Positions 3,170 to 27,530 of a stretch of 49,950 bases of DNA are shown piece after piece; the first letter of the stretch is position 1, and every line of letters starts with the position of its first letter. This DNA is from a virus: positions 1 to 49,950 of IMG/VR virus record IMGVR_UViG_3300042544_002488; one strand, 5' to 3'. The translations under genes and the position numbers were made by a program. The notes below the pieces were generated by a model, which made no database searches, was not told the origin of the DNA, and saw nothing but the letters and a program-made list of their open reading frames with translations.

Positions 3170-4048
3170 ATGATCCAAGAATACTACTCAGACAAATCTC
3201 GTTTCAGCAGTTCAGGAATTAAGCATATCCTGAAATCACCTGCACACTACCAACACTACTTGCTTAATGGTATCGAAACCACAGAAGCAATGAATCACGG
3301 GCAGTTCATCCATACAGCAACAATGGAGCAAACTGAAATCTTTAAGAGGTTCAGACTACTTGCAGACACAAGACTTGAACCCAACAAAGAAGGCAAGATT
3401 GAATTTCGTTCCGCACTTAACAAAGGTATCAGGGATGAATTTATTAATCAATGCGAACTCGATAAAGTAACTCCAATTATCAAACAAGAAGATTGGGATG
3501 AAATTATGACTACCGCAGGAAATGTTCGTAAATCCCCTATCTATCAGCAACTATTCAGTGATGCCGAAGTAGAGAAGGAATTTCATTGGATAGACCCTGA
3601 ATATAATATTCCAATGAAAGGTAAAGTGGATTTGTTCAAAGTCCTTTCAGGATTTGGCGTAATAGGCGACTTGAAGAAACTACCCGACATTGATATTGAA
3701 AGTATGAAAACCTACATTAAGCACAGAGATAGGCTTATTCATGCTCAATTAGCAGTTTATACCGAAGCTGTAGAAGTAACAATGGGTATCGAAACCAAGT
3801 ATCATATCGTAATTGGATGTCATAAAGAAAGCCAACAAAACGGATTTTTTCTTGTGCCACAATCTCCAGGTGAATTTAACTCTGTTTGGCAGGACTATTC
3901 TGTTAGTGCAGGAAAGACTATTTACACTCGTGCGAAGCAGATTTATCGTGATTGCCTTGATAAGTTTGGAGAACCTTGGGTAGAGGGTATTAAATGGCCA
4001 GGAGTAGAATACTTTGCCTCAAACGAATTTGGATTAGTAGAACTTTAA
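3170..4048 (+). CDS. RecE-like PD-(D/E)XK exonuclease
   Basis: Probable 5'-3' double-strand DNA exonuclease that makes single strands for RecT annealing. The N-terminus has IKHILKSPAHYQHYLL and NHGQFIHTATME, typical of phage PD-(D/E)XK nucleases related to RecE and the YqaJ/Cas4-like group. The metal site reads as Asp154 (GKVDLF) followed by Asp167-Leu-Lys169 (GDLKK), the D...(D)xK signature. The size (292 aa) matches stand-alone phage versions rather than full RecE. recT starts 15 bases downstream, the usual partner arrangement. Confidence 0.85.
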   Translation: MIQEYYSDKSRFSSSGIKHILKSPAHYQHYLLNGIETTEAMNHGQFIHTATMEQTEIFKRFRLLADTRLEPNKEGKIEFRSALNKGIRDEFINQCELDKVTPIIKQEDWDEIMTTAGNVRKSPIYQQLFSDAEVEKEFHWIDPEYNIPMKGKVDLFKVLSGFGVIGDLKKLPDIDIESMKTYIKHRDRLIHAQLAVYTEAVEVTMGIETKYHIVIGCHKESQQNGFFLVPQSPGEFNSVWQDYSVSAGKTIYTRAKQIYRDCLDKFGEPWVEGIKWPGVEYFASNEFGLVEL

Positions 4049-8100: not shown

Positions 8101-8577
8101 ATGACCAAATTAACAGAAACCCCCAATTACATTCCAGCACTTGCCGAGGCGATTCTTCCAAACGGACAGACACTATTTTGCCAGTTCGACAACTACGATG
8201 ACCTCAAGAACTTCCAAATCGAATCAGGCGGAAAGCCTTGCTTGGTTCAGTACGATAGGGATAATAATGTAAAGTTGATTCAGCATGATTATTTCAGGGA
8301 GTGCTTGGATTGGACTAAGGAATATGAAGATTACACAATGTACACGGAACGCCCGTGGCATTTTCTAAAAGACCTGTACGATAATAGCATGATGTATAAT
8401 ATGGATATACTTTACAAGTCACTTCTAAGGTCGTTTGATTGGGACAGAGAAGAATCGAGAGTATTAATTAAAATGGACTTATCTGAGCGTGAGTTTGATT
8501 TGATTGTAATTAATTATCCAGTCGTTAATCAGAATATCGGGAACGGCTTAAACGAAACTATGGGGGTGATTGTATGA
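8101..8577 (+). CDS. Hypothetical protein, 158 aa
   Basis: Acidic, Tyr/Asp-rich soluble protein without recognised motifs. It sits between the DnaA-like pair and a PP-loop enzyme and overlaps the latter's start by four bases. Translation coupling suggests shared expression, not necessarily a shared function. Confidence 0.6.
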   Translation: MTKLTETPNYIPALAEAILPNGQTLFCQFDNYDDLKNFQIESGGKPCLVQYDRDNNVKLIQHDYFRECLDWTKEYEDYTMYTERPWHFLKDLYDNSMMYNMDILYKSLLRSFDWDREESRVLIKMDLSEREFDLIVINYPVVNQNIGNGLNETMGVIV

Positions 8578-9449
8578 AAGATAAATTATTGATTTCATTT
8601 TCAGGAGGCAGAACATCTGCATTTATGACTTGGTGGCTTTTGAAAAACATGAAGCATAAATACGATATGATTGTTGTGTTTGCGAATACAGGGCGTGAAA
8701 GAGAAGAAACATTAGAATTTGTAAACAAATGTGATATTGAGTTTGGGTTCAATACCGTTTGGGTTGAGGCTTTTGTTCACAATCAATCTGGCAAAGGAAC
8801 TACGCATATTGTTACTAACTTTAACAATGCTGAAAGAAACGGTCAGCCATTTGAAGATGTAATTTTCAAATATGGAATACCGAATCAGAATGCCCCTCAT
8901 TGTTCCCGTGAGTTAAAAAAGCAACCTATTATGTCTTATGCCCGTAGTATTGGGTGGAATAAATATCAGACAGCACTTGGTATTAGAAGTGATGAACCTA
9001 AGCGGTTAAATTGGGAAACAAAAAGAAAAAATAATCTGGTATATTTTGCAGAGTTTTTTAATGTTGCTAAAAGCGATGTAAATAAATTTTGGTCAGAACA
9101 ATCTTTTGACTTAAGCCTAAAAAGTTACGAGGGTAATTGTGATTTATGTTACAAAAAAGGACTAAGAAAATTAATGACTTTAATAAAGTATAACCCAGAA
9201 ATGGCTGATTGGTGGAGAGAAATGGAATCAAAATATGAAAATCTTGATGTAAGAAATACAGGCAAAACACCTATTAGATTCTATCGTGATAATATGACAA
9301 TTGATGAAATAATTGAGGAAAGTAAATTGCCATTTGTTGAGGCAGTTGATGAAAGTAAGATTATTGCTACCGGAAAGCAAATGTCAATGTTTGACAATTA
9401 CTTGGACAGCAATTATGGTTGTGTTGAATCTTGTGAAGCATGGGGGTGA
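8574..9449 (+). CDS. PP-loop ATPase, PAPS-reductase (CysH-like) family
   Basis: Adenylating enzyme of the PAPS reductase/ATP-sulfurylase-like fold. The PP-loop SFSGGRTSA is at residues 8-16, followed by MIVVFANTGREREETLEFV, typical of the second nucleotide-contacting strand. Cysteines at HCSREL, NCDLCYKKG and the C-terminal GCVESCEAW could hold an Fe-S cluster. ALGIRSDEPKRLNW is a family-like loop. Genuine sulfate assimilation is unlikely in a phage; related PP-loop enzymes thiolate tRNA or DNA, so nucleic acid modification is the preferred inference. It shares little obvious sequence with the second PP-loop gene at 23041-23931. Confidence 0.82.
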   Translation: MKDKLLISFSGGRTSAFMTWWLLKNMKHKYDMIVVFANTGREREETLEFVNKCDIEFGFNTVWVEAFVHNQSGKGTTHIVTNFNNAERNGQPFEDVIFKYGIPNQNAPHCSRELKKQPIMSYARSIGWNKYQTALGIRSDEPKRLNWETKRKNNLVYFAEFFNVAKSDVNKFWSEQSFDLSLKSYEGNCDLCYKKGLRKLMTLIKYNPEMADWWREMESKYENLDVRNTGKTPIRFYRDNMTIDEIIEESKLPFVEAVDESKIIATGKQMSMFDNYLDSNYGCVESCEAWG

Positions 9450-23040: not shown

Positions 23041-23931
23041 TTATTTACCACATAAAAGACCGCAAGATGTTATTTGAAGCATATCCTGAAAGTCTGTACC
23101 ATCATTTGTGTTTATTGATTCAAAATTCATTTTTAACTGCCTTGTCTTTTCAATAAATTTTACAATTGAATCTGTCCTTTTATTAAATATTTCATCAGAC
23201 CTATCCGATATGTTTTTAAGTGAATTGTCTTTGCCGTTAAAAAAATATTCAGAAACATTATGCTCCCATCCTTCATACTCCCAAAACATTTCTGGGTGAT
23301 GTTCAAGCAATCCAATCCATTCGTAGAGGCGTTGATTAAAGCACATAGAACAATTTGTCCTTGACCTCCAAGCGAACAAAGCATCAATATCCCACTCCTT
23401 AAATGTATTTTTTATGTATTGTTCATCGCATTTTAAAACTACTGAATCCCATAGTCTTTGCCAAAAGAATACAGGAGGTTTTAATTTCGCTTTGTGATTT
23501 ATTTCATATACCATAGGCAGTGTTATACCTTCTTCGATTAGTGGATAAATAGGAGTTATATTCTTGTACCTAAAGTTATTGTATCCAATTCTATTTTCAT
23601 CTGCTCTAATTCCATAATAAACAAGCGTTTCCCCCTTACCAATAAACTTCTCCATTGGCTCTATTTTTGCCATACGAGTACAATATCTGGCTTGTCTTGA
23701 AGGTAAAAACCAGTTCATTTCATATTCTATAATTTCCTTCAAATCTTCACCAACCCTAATAATAGGTTTGCCTAAGTATGATTCTACTTTGTCTATCCAC
23801 TGTATAACTTCTGGCAATTCTTGACCAGTAGGATTAAACATAAACTCATAATCAATGTTTGGCTCTCTATTCAATTGAATCAAAGCCGTTGCTAAACTAT
23901 CCTTTCCGCTTATTGGAATTATATGCCTCAT
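23041..23931 (-). CDS. PP-loop ATPase, PAPS-reductase-like (second copy, divergent)
   Basis: PP-loop IPISGKDSLATA (residues 5-16) with the canonical SGxDS signature, followed by YEFMFNPTGQELPEVI. It contains FLPSRQARYCTRMAKI and GIRADENRIGY, typical of phage PAPS-reductase-family proteins, and NCSMCFNQRLYEW with a CxxC pair. The C-terminus ends CGLLCGK. It is not a simple duplicate of the gene at 8574-9449; conserved blocks differ. Thiolation or another adenylation-dependent nucleic acid modification is the inferred role. It is the first gene after the 24477-24508 promoter. Confidence 0.8.
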   Translation of the reverse strand: MRHIIPISGKDSLATALIQLNREPNIDYEFMFNPTGQELPEVIQWIDKVESYLGKPIIRVGEDLKEIIEYEMNWFLPSRQARYCTRMAKIEPMEKFIGKGETLVYYGIRADENRIGYNNFRYKNITPIYPLIEEGITLPMVYEINHKAKLKPPVFFWQRLWDSVVLKCDEQYIKNTFKEWDIDALFAWRSRTNCSMCFNQRLYEWIGLLEHHPEMFWEYEGWEHNVSEYFFNGKDNSLKNISDRSDEIFNKRTDSIVKFIEKTRQLKMNFESINTNDGTDFQDMLQITSCGLLCGK

Positions 23932-24046
23932 TATTATTATTTGTAATACTTACTACGATGTTTTACTTTTTTTGTTGCAGTAAATTATAGTTATTTACTA
24001 TTATTACTATACTTTATACTACTTACTTAACTATACTTCCTCTTTG

Positions 24047-24361
24047 TTAGACCCTGAGATTACTGAAAGTAGTACCATCCCCAAATTTGCTTCCAAATCC
24101 AGGTTGGTACCTTTCAGTTTCAATCAGTAACAGGTTTTCCTCCCCGTTGAGCCCTTTCGATAAACTGCCCAATAGTCAACACATATGTGCTATTAGGTTG
24201 GAGCCGACTTTCAGGTGATATGCCACCCATCCAAACACTGTTTCTCCTTTGTAGTCAGTTTGCGGTGTGTTAGGAATCCCCCCGGTACCGCTTTTAGTTA
24301 GTACCCCGGTGGTCTTTATTCCCTCCCGATACATAACCGAGTTGCTTTCCAGGTATCCCTA
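24047..24361 (-). other. GC-richer folded stretch with short protein-like frames
   Basis: This part of the 23932-24570 gap has visibly more G/C than its surroundings. On the minus strand three different frames read protein-like: one 52-aa frame (24176-24334), one 36-aa frame (24120-24230, starting MGGISPESRLQPNSTYVLTI) and a third ending FGDGTTFSNLRV at 24047. It also folds: CTGAAAG...GTACC with GGTAC...TTTCAG (24063-24115) and GGTAC/GTACC near 24280-24305. It may be a decayed gene, an untranslated leader of the PP-loop operon or a structured RNA. The bases from 23932 to 24046 are AT-rich with nothing recognisable. Confidence 0.4.
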
Positions 24362-24471
24362 TAAAAAGAAAAAACCCTGAAGGGTAGTGCGACCTCAGGG
24401 TTTCTTGGTAAAATACTGGGTAAAAGCCAGTAAAATCTTCAGTTACTCATTGACACGCACTACCGTAACAA
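24362..24471 (-). ncRNA. Candidate small RNA (~105 nt) or attenuator leader
   Basis: Bounded by a predicted promoter (24508-24477) and an intrinsic terminator: stem AAACCCTGA/TCAGGGTTT (24403-24372) followed on the minus strand by a T-rich run to 24362. An internal hairpin TACTGG/CCAGTA (24414-24432) is perfect. GGTAGTGCG near the RNA 5' end is complementary over 9 bases to CGCACTACC in the terminator loop, which would form a pseudoknot. No reading frame fits. If read-through occurs, the same unit would control the PP-loop operon downstream. Confidence 0.6.
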
Positions 24472-24476
24472 CGGAA

Positions 24477-24508
24477 CAAAGTTATATTGGGATTACGACA
24501 ATCCCAAA
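24477..24508 (-). promoter_or_regulatory. Predicted Bacteroidota-type promoter (minus)
   Basis: On the minus strand TTTG (24508-24505), 20-nt spacer, TAACTTTG (24484-24477): full consensus. It faces away from the plus-strand promoter at 24521-24551 and drives the small RNA/PP-loop operon. Confidence 0.75.
24487..24507. promoter_or_regulatory. Palindromic operator candidate
   Basis: TTGGGATT (24487-24494), five bases, AATCCCAA (24500-24507): perfect 8-bp arms in the spacer of the minus promoter and 13 bases left of the plus promoter's -33 box. Placement suggests a repressor site controlling both directions. As RNA it could also form a hairpin. Confidence 0.6.
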
Positions 24509-24520
24509 TAAAAGTTACAT

Positions 24521-24551
24521 TTTGCTGAAAATATTTTTTTCATTACCTTTG
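24521..24551 (+). promoter_or_regulatory. Predicted late/structural promoter (plus)
   Basis: TTTG (24521-24524), 19-nt spacer, TACCTTTG (24544-24551), 19 bases before the ATG at 24571. Full consensus match. It opens the packaging and head gene block. Confidence 0.78.
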
Positions 24552-25160: not shown

Positions 25161-27530
25161 ATGCCAGAACCAAGAGCAATAAATTACGAAAAGATACTAT
25201 TACAGAATCTTTCAGACTTGTATTCAATGCTATTTGAGTACGGTGCTGAAAGTGTTATGCCTCCCAAGTATGTCGTAGAACTTGAACGCAAAGGTCATGC
25301 GATAAACAGCGACTATGCCCCTGGTGAATACATTGCCAAGGCTTTCCGAAAGAAACGAATAGCGAGGTCAAAACGGCTTACAGGTAAACTTGAACAGAAG
25401 TTCGGGCAAACACATACAAAGCAGTTATTCGAACAAGTTAGCGATAACTACATAGAGATTTTAGAGGGGAATTTCAAGGATGCACCTACGGTAATTGTTA
25501 CCGAGGAACGCAAACTTCAGGAGCAAGAAAATGTCCTTACGCATTACAGGGGCGGTAAGATTGTCAAGGCAGATTGGATTCCATATAGGAATGGCGATAA
25601 GTTTGATTTCGACACAACCTTCGTTAAATGGGTAGATTCATGGTTCCCAAGGGGGTTCAGTTATGCAACAGAATACTCTAAGTTCAATCTTTATTGCCAG
25701 CAAGCAGAGGATTGGTACCAAGCAGGGTATGATATAAACAATGCTTTTGGAATTGATGAACAGATTGATTTCTGCGTAGAGGAAAAGCGTAGGTATGAGC
25801 AAAACAGCCTGTACTATGTTTATAAAAACGGCAGGTTAAAAGATGGTAGTTATGATGGTGGCAGGAGGCGAATAGAACCTTACAAAGCACAGAAACTACT
25901 TTTGTACCTTCTTGATTGCGAGTTATCTGCTGTAATCGGTAAAATGAGGCAGTTGGGTATTACGAGTATAATTGGAATGGGTGCTGCTTCTAAGACTATG
26001 TACCGCAGAGAGTGGTTTACCAAGTACATTTGTGAGGATGACAGCAAGACCCGAAGCGTATTTGAGGATAAAATTAAGTACCCGATAAGCGAAACCCCAC
26101 ACTATTTAGTTCCAAGTAGTTTTAGCGACCAAGAAAGGCAGTTGAAGTTTGGATTAAAGGAGGTTAAGGGTAGAGTAGATGGGGCAAATTCTAAAGTTGA
26201 GGTAGTTCCTCCAAGTGCTACGGCTGTGAACTCAGGTAGTCCTCAATTAGTGCTTATAGATGAAATCGGGAATATCCCTATTCTGACTAAAATGGTCAAC
26301 GAAGCTCGTCCGACTATGTTTATTTACAATCCAGAAACCAAACGGATTGAGTACAAACGGCAGTTGTTTATGTGGGGAACCGGTGGAGAAATGAAAACCG
26401 ATAGTTTCGAAACAGAGTTTAAGGCTGCATTAGAGAATTGGAAGAAAAGGAATTTTAAGTACGGAATTATACCCGTATTTCTTGATGCTTTTTGTAAACC
26501 AGGTATCGAGGGAGAGTTTTACGAAAGTGAAAAAACGAATGCTTATTCGAAAATAGGTGCCGACAGAGATGCTACCATAAGTCAGTTTCATGCCGGTTAT
26601 CCCGTTCATATTGACGATATGTTCATCCGGAGTGTAAACACATTGGTTCCTATTTCTACCTGCAATAGTCATTTAAAGCGAATATGGGATTTAGAAGATG
26701 CTGCAAAACCTATTTACGGCAGATTTGAACCCGTTTTTGATACCAATAGTCCTACTACGGATATTAACGATTGGCCATATAGGGTTGTTGGAGTGATATT
26801 CGTGCCAATGGCTTACGAGGACGATCCACCAATAATTATGTTTCACGAACCCGATAAGAGGTGGAAGCATAGATATTTTCAGGGAACTGACCCGATAAAT
26901 ACAGAAAGTGGGCATAGTAAGTTTTCGAGTACGATTTGGGATGCTGAGTGGAATACCATTAGTTGTCAGTTATTTTGGCGTGTCCGGAATTTCATGGAGT
27001 GCTACCAACAGAGTTTATTGATGGGTTTATACTATGACCAAAAGGAGTGGAAGGGTACACCTGAGTTGATTGAGTACAATATCGGAGGGGATTACATTGG
27101 GTTTAGAGAACGCAAAGGATTTGACAAAAACCTGATTTATAACAAGGAGTTAAATCCTATGATGCACATTGACGGCTCAAGGATAGGTATAAGCAATAAG
27201 GCTGCTACTAAGGGTAAGATTATCAACAAATTGAAGGAATTATCTGAAATGTATGGGGATAATATTTACATTCAGGAGTTCTGGGAACAGCACAAAACAT
27301 TTATTCAGAAGGATACTGCTAACGGAGGCATTAAGTGGCAAGCCGAGAACCTAAAGAAGCATTACGATGATATTCTTTTTAGTTCAACTTTTGCGTATAT
27401 GGCTTCACAGGTTTATCAGAGTAGCCACAGGTATCCGGAGTTCATAGATGAAAACAGACCTAAAAAAGTAAAGAATACTTTTGTCAGGGATGCCAATGGG
27501 AACCTAAGGAGAATCACAAGTTTAGTTTAA
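25161..27530 (+). CDS. terL: Terminase large subunit
   Basis: DNA-packaging motor: ATPase plus headful or site-specific nuclease. The ATPase motifs are a variant Walker A region KMRQLGITS (about residues 261-269) and Walker B LVLIDEIG (about 363-370, DE catalytic pair). A C-terminal nuclease half is expected; GGDYIGF near residue 640 contributes acidic residues, but I could not place all three with certainty. At 789 aa it is longer than most TerL, with a ~250-residue N-terminal extension. Position upstream of portal and capsid genes supports the call. Confidence 0.85.
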   Translation: MPEPRAINYEKILLQNLSDLYSMLFEYGAESVMPPKYVVELERKGHAINSDYAPGEYIAKAFRKKRIARSKRLTGKLEQKFGQTHTKQLFEQVSDNYIEILEGNFKDAPTVIVTEERKLQEQENVLTHYRGGKIVKADWIPYRNGDKFDFDTTFVKWVDSWFPRGFSYATEYSKFNLYCQQAEDWYQAGYDINNAFGIDEQIDFCVEEKRRYEQNSLYYVYKNGRLKDGSYDGGRRRIEPYKAQKLLLYLLDCELSAVIGKMRQLGITSIIGMGAASKTMYRREWFTKYICEDDSKTRSVFEDKIKYPISETPHYLVPSSFSDQERQLKFGLKEVKGRVDGANSKVEVVPPSATAVNSGSPQLVLIDEIGNIPILTKMVNEARPTMFIYNPETKRIEYKRQLFMWGTGGEMKTDSFETEFKAALENWKKRNFKYGIIPVFLDAFCKPGIEGEFYESEKTNAYSKIGADRDATISQFHAGYPVHIDDMFIRSVNTLVPISTCNSHLKRIWDLEDAAKPIYGRFEPVFDTNSPTTDINDWPYRVVGVIFVPMAYEDDPPIIMFHEPDKRWKHRYFQGTDPINTESGHSKFSSTIWDAEWNTISCQLFWRVRNFMECYQQSLLMGLYYDQKEWKGTPELIEYNIGGDYIGFRERKGFDKNLIYNKELNPMMHIDGSRIGISNKAATKGKIINKLKELSEMYGDNIYIQEFWEQHKTFIQKDTANGGIKWQAENLKKHYDDILFSSTFAYMASQVYQSSHRYPEFIDENRPKKVKNTFVRDANGNLRRITSLV

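Follow-up and report, generated by a model that had tools for sequence, protein, structure and literature searches.

A putative class of phage regulatory RNA with pairing between the transcript start, or a 5′ hairpin loop, and the terminator loop

In an uncultured Bacteroidetes-type phage, a short transcription unit on the minus strand is predicted to yield an RNA whose 5′ region is complementary to the loop of its own terminator. The unit lies in a window of 49,950 nt (the whole stretch of DNA analysed, positions 1 to 49,950 of IMGVR_UViG_3300042544_002488), and the first-pass annotation described it as a promoter–pseudoknot–terminator unit that is either a free-standing small RNA or a leader controlling read-through into a PP-loop operon. 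Our data support the unit as such, with its pairing kept by compensatory change in homologues, and they separate the two proposed functions.

The promoter, TTTGGGATTGTCGTAATCCCAATATAACTTTG, carries TTTG near −33 and TAnnTTTG near −7 with a spacer of 20, the arrangement of Bacteroidetes primary-sigma promoters. It is indeed a full-consensus element, as annotated, and the only full match to TTTG-N18/22-TAnnTTTG on the minus strand of the window; the whole window holds 7 such matches versus a shuffle mean of 1.36. The promoter is not of the E. coli type and is absent from the output of a generic promoter scan. Promoter mapping in F. johnsoniae gave T−12 A−11 T−8 T−7 T−6 G−5, with the final G of TAnnTTTG at −5 (PMC6847099); hence, the predicted +1 is G24472, compared to ~24470 in the earlier annotation, and the predicted RNA opens with GUUGUUACGGUAGUGCGUGUCAAUGAGUAACUGAAG. 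At the other end, a hairpin directly 5′ of a T-run (24403–24363; 11-pair stem, 10-nt loop, then T6 C T5) has the features of an intrinsic (Rho-independent) terminator, and the strong T-run ascribed to it is present. A generic terminator scan missed it because that scan permits loops of 8 nt at most. The promoter of the terL operon stands back to back with the promoter of the RNA, 13 bp from its −33 box, and the distant units described below likewise adjoin a divergent plus-strand gene. A palindrome, GGGATTGTCGTAATCCC (24505–24489, minus strand), lies between the −33 and −7 boxes; it is operator-like and is lost in relatives such as L010.

Table 1. Elements of the unit and the neighbouring late promoter, in window coordinates
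Feature	Positions	Strand	Basis
Bacteroidetes-type promoter TTTG-N20-TAACTTTG (−33/−7)	24477..24508	−	kept in 7/7 homologous haplotypes
Predicted RNA, about 105–110 nt, +1 G24472, end about 24369–24363	24363..24472	−	inferred from promoter spacing and terminator
Hairpin H1, 5′ arm GTTAC	24465..24469	−	invariant in 7 haplotypes; weak alone
Kissing arm 1 GGTAGTGCG, +9 to +17, loop of H1	24456..24464	−	pairs with 24391–24383; covaries
Hairpin H1, 3′ arm GTAAC	24442..24446	−	varies once among haplotypes, by G-U
Hairpin H2, 5′ arm TACTGG	24427..24432	−	5/6 pairs show two-sided changes in homologues
Hairpin H2, 3′ arm CCAGTA	24414..24419	−	same covariation, 5/6 pairs
Terminator stem, 5′ arm AAACCCTGAGG	24393..24403	−	stem pairs retained in homologues
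Kissing arm 2 CGCACTACC, 9/10 loop bases, flush with 3′ stem arm	24383..24391	−	pairs with arm 1
Terminator stem, 3′ arm CTTCAGGGTTT	24372..24382	−	stem pairing with 24403–24393
T-run TTTTTTCTTTTT	24363..24374	−	sequence
Late-operon promoter TTTG-N19-TACCTTTG, before 24571 and terL 25161–27530	24521..24551	+	full-consensus match

The nine-base pairing noted between the terminator loop and the 5′ region of the RNA is perfect; by simple arithmetic, a 9-bp complementarity of this loop to some part of the first 45 nt has a chance probability of ~3 in 10,000. The H1 helix encloses arm 1, and therefore, a loop-loop contact is possible. Support for this helix in the window is weak (160/2000 in a shuffled-flank control), and a local fold competes with it. 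The sequence of H1, GTTGTTACGG, is invariant across the window family; at one mismatch it occurs 8 times in the window versus 1.9 expected from dinucleotide shuffles, an excess that codon usage may explain. The TACTGG/CCAGTA hairpin (H2) is present between the two arms, as described. CCGTTGTTACGG was also considered as the 5′ hairpin and rejected, because it would span the predicted +1 and loses a pair in 3 of 7 haplotypes (L010, L011, L015).

TerL relatives in IMG/VR yielded seven haplotypes of the window-type unit, which retain the promoter and GTTGTTACGG and in which the arms pair despite changed letters. The window has GGTAGTGCG/CGCACTACC, L015 has GGTGGTGCG/CGCACCACC, L007 and L009 have GGTGGTGCGT/ATGCACCACC and GGTGGTGCGT/ACGCACTACC with one G-U each, and L011 and L013 have GGCTTGAC/GTCAAGCC, both arms being swapped relative to the window. 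Over 935 bp, L013 and the window share 93.6% identity, yet L013 carries the other arm pair; since two segments 60-odd bases apart differ in otherwise near-identical DNA, the arms have evidently been exchanged together. H2 covaries as well (Table 1). Over all 28 pairs of a MAFFT alignment, 88.9% of the cells pair versus 79.3% in shuffles, and 0 of 500 shuffles was as high. In this alignment, L011 and L013 are shifted by one column, so that the arm helix is under-counted and the per-pair statistics of the window family alone are modest. The first-pass annotation had named covariation in homologues as the check on the unit, and the compensatory arm changes answer it in the affirmative.

The architecture recurs beyond the window family. 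Applied to 1.86 Mb of TerL-related contigs, a fixed descriptor that asks for TAnnTTTG, a terminator behind it, and pairing of the first 45 nt with the loop returned 79 units in a two-humped distribution, about twenty with a pairing of 8–12 bp and the remainder near chance; almost none of the other promoter–terminator units in the 1.86 Mb pair. With few exceptions, such as L057, the new units lie directly 5′ of a minus-strand operon in which a 93-aa gene is followed by an exonuclease gene (phrog_298, E 1.7e-23; Pfam PD-(D/E)XK, 5e-4). So as not to select by the feature itself, all homologues of the 93-aa gene were collected, their upstream regions were read, and the terminator nearest the ATG was taken for each. 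This gave 36 distinct promoter–terminator leaders, 33 of which score 6.9 or more, with arm pairs as different as GTGTTGGCG/CGCCAACAC, GTGTTGGCA/TGCCAACAC, GAGATTAGCA/TGCTAATCTT, GAGACTAG/CTAGTCTT, AGCAATTAGA/TCTAATTGCT, TGTGTTAGGA/TCCTAACGCA, and GCGATGGAAA/TTTTCATCGC; in one leader (L107), the pairing includes a single mismatched base. The leader of L178 and L179 has the terminator and lacks the pairing, and L156, L158, and L159 have the operon without a leader; hence, the element is dispensable. In a set of 12 representative types (10 clusters plus the two alleles of the window), the own-pair sum was 102.8, and 0 of 100,000 permutations was as high (best, 89.1).

For an out-of-sample test, homologues of the exonuclease were used with the pairing measure fixed beforehand. 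The 33 contigs with names new to the analysis held 16 distinct units with an own mean of 8.12 versus a crossed mean of 4.89 (0 of 20,000 permutations), in a set whose independence is incomplete because some members are close relatives of earlier types. They added further compensatory arms, for example GCGATAAAG/CTTTATCGC and AGTGCAG/CTGCACT alongside AATGCAG/CTGCATT. Under the rule, no unit was present in about half of the new contigs, several very large ones included. A third TerL lineage has a 12-bp version, TGGAAAGGGGTT/AACCCCTTTCCA, in L057 (287–164, minus strand) and L060 (3180–2981, minus strand), where the next minus-strand gene is ~440 nt away. Another TerL-related viral contig, L096, holds a tmRNA predicted by ARAGORN (flagged tmRNA*) adjoining a promoter–terminator unit with a 7-bp CCGTAAA/TTTACGG pairing, in a region given by 3412–3904 (minus strand) and 3874–4017 (plus strand). 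On inspection, L096 and L056 were judged unproven or negative as class members.

The 5′ arm comes in two layouts. In the first, there is no hairpin around the arm, and in most of these types its first paired base lies at the predicted +1 or at most 1–2 nt from it. In the second layout, the arm starts at +6 to +9 and is held in the loop of a short 5′ hairpin, as in CAGT[AATGCAG]ACTG and AATGTT[GTGCGG]AACATT; the window, with GTTAC[GGTAGTGCG...]GTAAC, belongs here. The hairpin is clearest in L013 and L011, where nine pairs surround CUUGACAU or CUUGACAC, and shuffled-flank controls support it in L171 (3/2000), L220 (6), and L013 (19). The 5′ linker is at least as long as the 3′ linker in nearly all types, and the paired segment lies within the loop. 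With a loop that pairs with a segment outside it and with compensatory change in the pairing, the unit shows the defining features of H-type pseudoknots and kissing-loop RNAs.

What lies behind the terminator differs between lineages, and here the two functions proposed for the unit part ways. The PP-loop gene (23041–23931, minus strand; PAPS reductase match, Pfam E 7e-9, phrog_424), which may have a look-alike at 8574–9449 (plus strand), has its ATG ~430 nt past the T-run; the L013 unit occurs without a PP-loop gene and the L011 unit without any downstream minus-strand gene. A leader function for the PP-loop operon is thus unsupported. As to attenuation in general, the proposal lacks support for this operon and finds it in the distant relatives, where the start codon of the operon lies 9–25 nt past the hairpin and the order is promoter, terminator, gene, without a second promoter. 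Likewise, in four window-type haplotypes (L007-, L009-, L010-, and L015-type contigs), the slot right behind the T-run is taken by an ORF resembling GIY-YIG homing endonucleases (L009 4755–5210, minus strand, with equivalents in L010, L007, and L015; Pfam PF01541 in L009, E 2.5e-8). The same slot in the window holds a 52-codon ORF ended by a stop, in a frame that is not open in L013 or L011, and no intact gene follows close downstream. The other proposal, a free-standing small RNA, fits the layout of the window, L011, and L013. A stretch of ~330 nt behind the RNA (24000–24360, minus strand) is common to the window, L013, and, at ~69% identity, L011; its frames are broken, and it may be the remnant of a gene or else a further structured RNA.

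In our model, the unit encodes an attenuator-type RNA with a loop-loop kissing contact that is free-standing in the window because the downstream gene slot is empty apart from a stop-broken ORF; we give this model about an even chance (probability around 0.5). The host RNA polymerase would start at G24472, and the nascent RNA would form the 5′ hairpin, the middle hairpin, and the terminator hairpin in turn. The 5′ hairpin loop would then kiss the terminator loop, a pairing backed by covariation, to give a closed, pseudoknotted RNA. Kissing and termination are probably compatible: the pairing occupies the loop without overlapping the stem, and this, together with the longer 5′ linker, favors a pseudoknot that forms alongside the terminator. 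Most relatives have the unit shortly 5′ of a start codon and no other promoter in the interval, and therefore, some transcription must read through: termination would yield a short closed RNA, and read-through would yield gene expression. The kissing helix would set the balance between the two or the lifetime of the short RNA, most likely by tuning the frequency of read-through and by shielding the 5′ end of the terminated product. The window lineage has no intact gene under control, and its RNA most likely survives, to judge from the gene layout, as a mainly terminated, free-standing product. A 9-bp helix in a 10-nt loop is strained, and hence, full pairing in the window may compete with the stem. 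MFE folds of L121-type units show only the terminator, because MFE prediction cannot represent a pseudoknot.

The kissing pair may in addition act between molecules as a self-recognition code, in which terminated leaders pair with nascent leaders of the same allele, an extension that we regard as improbable. The paired swap of both arms between the window and L013 is the trace expected from such an allele system, and if it existed, output would drop as genome copies increase and phages with swapped arms would not cross-react.

Among the alternatives, a stable free-standing small RNA that acts in trans on a target or protein, with the kissing contact only protecting its ends, the 5′ one buried and the 3′ one within the terminator, is possible and has our tentative, minor credence. 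Such a role is in line with the pseudoknot-dependent stability of RydC (PMC4337610), with the invariance of GTTGTTACGG in the window family, and with the pairing that the window, L011, and L013 keep without an intact downstream gene and L057 and L060 with the next gene far off. However, most known examples sit shortly 5′ of a start codon, and no convincing target emerged from the window, in which complementary matches to the RNA are short (longest non-poly-T match, 11 nt; 27 matches at 10 nt versus a shuffle mean of 15, a modest excess). A second alternative is anti-termination, in which the 5′ arm traps the nascent loop ahead of synthesis of the 3′ stem arm and so keeps the terminator hairpin from forming; pairing and termination would then be mutually exclusive, and pairing would lead to read-through. 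The 5′ arm is always synthesized first, the terminator loops are unusually long (10–24 nt, some 38), and L007, alone among the folds, prefers the long-range helix over the terminator in its MFE structure. Yet, a competing arm should reach into the stem, whereas in the types examined the pairing does not extend beyond the loop, and the linkers are asymmetric as required when the stem closes on an already formed helix; we consider this mechanism unlikely. It is very improbable that the arms are instead DNA inverted repeats, two operator half-sites of a phage repressor that covary through protein specificity: the arms do lie as inverted repeats beside a promoter and are swapped pairwise between close relatives, like immunity regions, but one always falls within a terminator loop, the position of the second is tied to the predicted +1 or to a 5′ hairpin loop, and G-U pairs occur. 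This anchoring to transcript start and terminator loop favors pairing at the level of RNA. Chance complementarity in an ordinary promoter–terminator pair, conceivable since short two-copy repeats are common, is refuted by the covariation and by the two permutation sets.

The proposed kissing RNA shares parts with several known systems. In hok-type mRNAs, long-distance pairing of the 5′ and 3′ regions closes an RNA that encodes a toxin. The RNA described here would likewise be closed by 5′–3′ pairing, but it has no toxin ORF (its ATG frame reads M-S-N-stop, unlike a type I toxin–antitoxin mRNA), and its 3′ partner is a terminator loop. The pRNA of phi29 assembles into a ring on the portal by pairing of complementary loops between molecules; it is also a phage RNA with complementary loops encoded near packaging genes, whereas here both loops are in one RNA, the pairing is explained intramolecularly, and in other clades the unit precedes the exonuclease operon. 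Hairpins control homing endonuclease genes of phage T4, which recalls the four haplotypes with a GIY-YIG ORF directly behind the structure, although in other relatives another operon, or no gene at all, follows. Attenuators of the pT181 and pIP501 type rely on a second RNA, an antisense transcript, for the kissing contact with the 5′ hairpin and on an anti-terminator complementary to the terminator stem (PMC4878617). Our unit resembles them as a leader with a 5′ hairpin, a terminator, and a loop-loop contact, which in those systems sets termination. It differs in that the kissing partner is its own terminator loop and that, in the types examined, the pairing stays in the loop and does not overlap the stem. 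In the window, the scan for full-consensus promoters gave none on the plus strand that is directed into the unit as a source of an antisense RNA. RydC, an enterobacterial, Hfq-bound small RNA whose pseudoknot is needed for stability (PMC4337610), has a comparable fold; its 5′ end is exposed as a seed, unlike the buried 5′ end here, and the present unit is a leader before a gene in relatives.

We thus propose a putative new class of phage regulatory RNA, on the comparative evidence of a pairing that is kept in dozens of related uncultured phages while its letters change completely. The claim that no class with this layout had been described held in our searches: Rfam 15 returned no family at the curated gathering score (best sub-threshold E-value, 0.91), and the literature searched, which included few subscription journals, contained no description of it. 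The class raises the testable question of whether a pseudoknot confined to the loop increases or decreases intrinsic termination, and it offers natural arm pairs that may be mutually orthogonal.

Its distribution may be narrow. Searching phage records at the DNA level, with the unit as query, gave one 25-base chance match, and pattern scans for GTTGTTACGG behind a TTTG or TAnnTTTG box gave only chance matches outside the TerL family; the TerL relatives L036 and L037 have no such unit. Against phage records, the window TerL had one weak match and the window portal none, and the TerL of L100 had only weak, partial matches to TerLs of other phages. In 234 kb of cultured Flavobacterium and Bacteroides phages (FpV4 whole, parts of DAC16 and crAss001), there were two promoter–terminator units, neither with the pairing, so that the class may not extend beyond this uncultured clade, as far as this small cultured sample goes. 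The promoter type and the nearest cultured relatives of the exonuclease, which are phages of Flavobacterium and Bacteroides, point to a host among the Bacteroidetes. A scan of genome contigs gave a single match, L043 (NVVR01000069.1), a contig of 31,779 bases from a Kordia MAG that carries a TerL relative and is a hint of either a flavobacterial host or a binning error.
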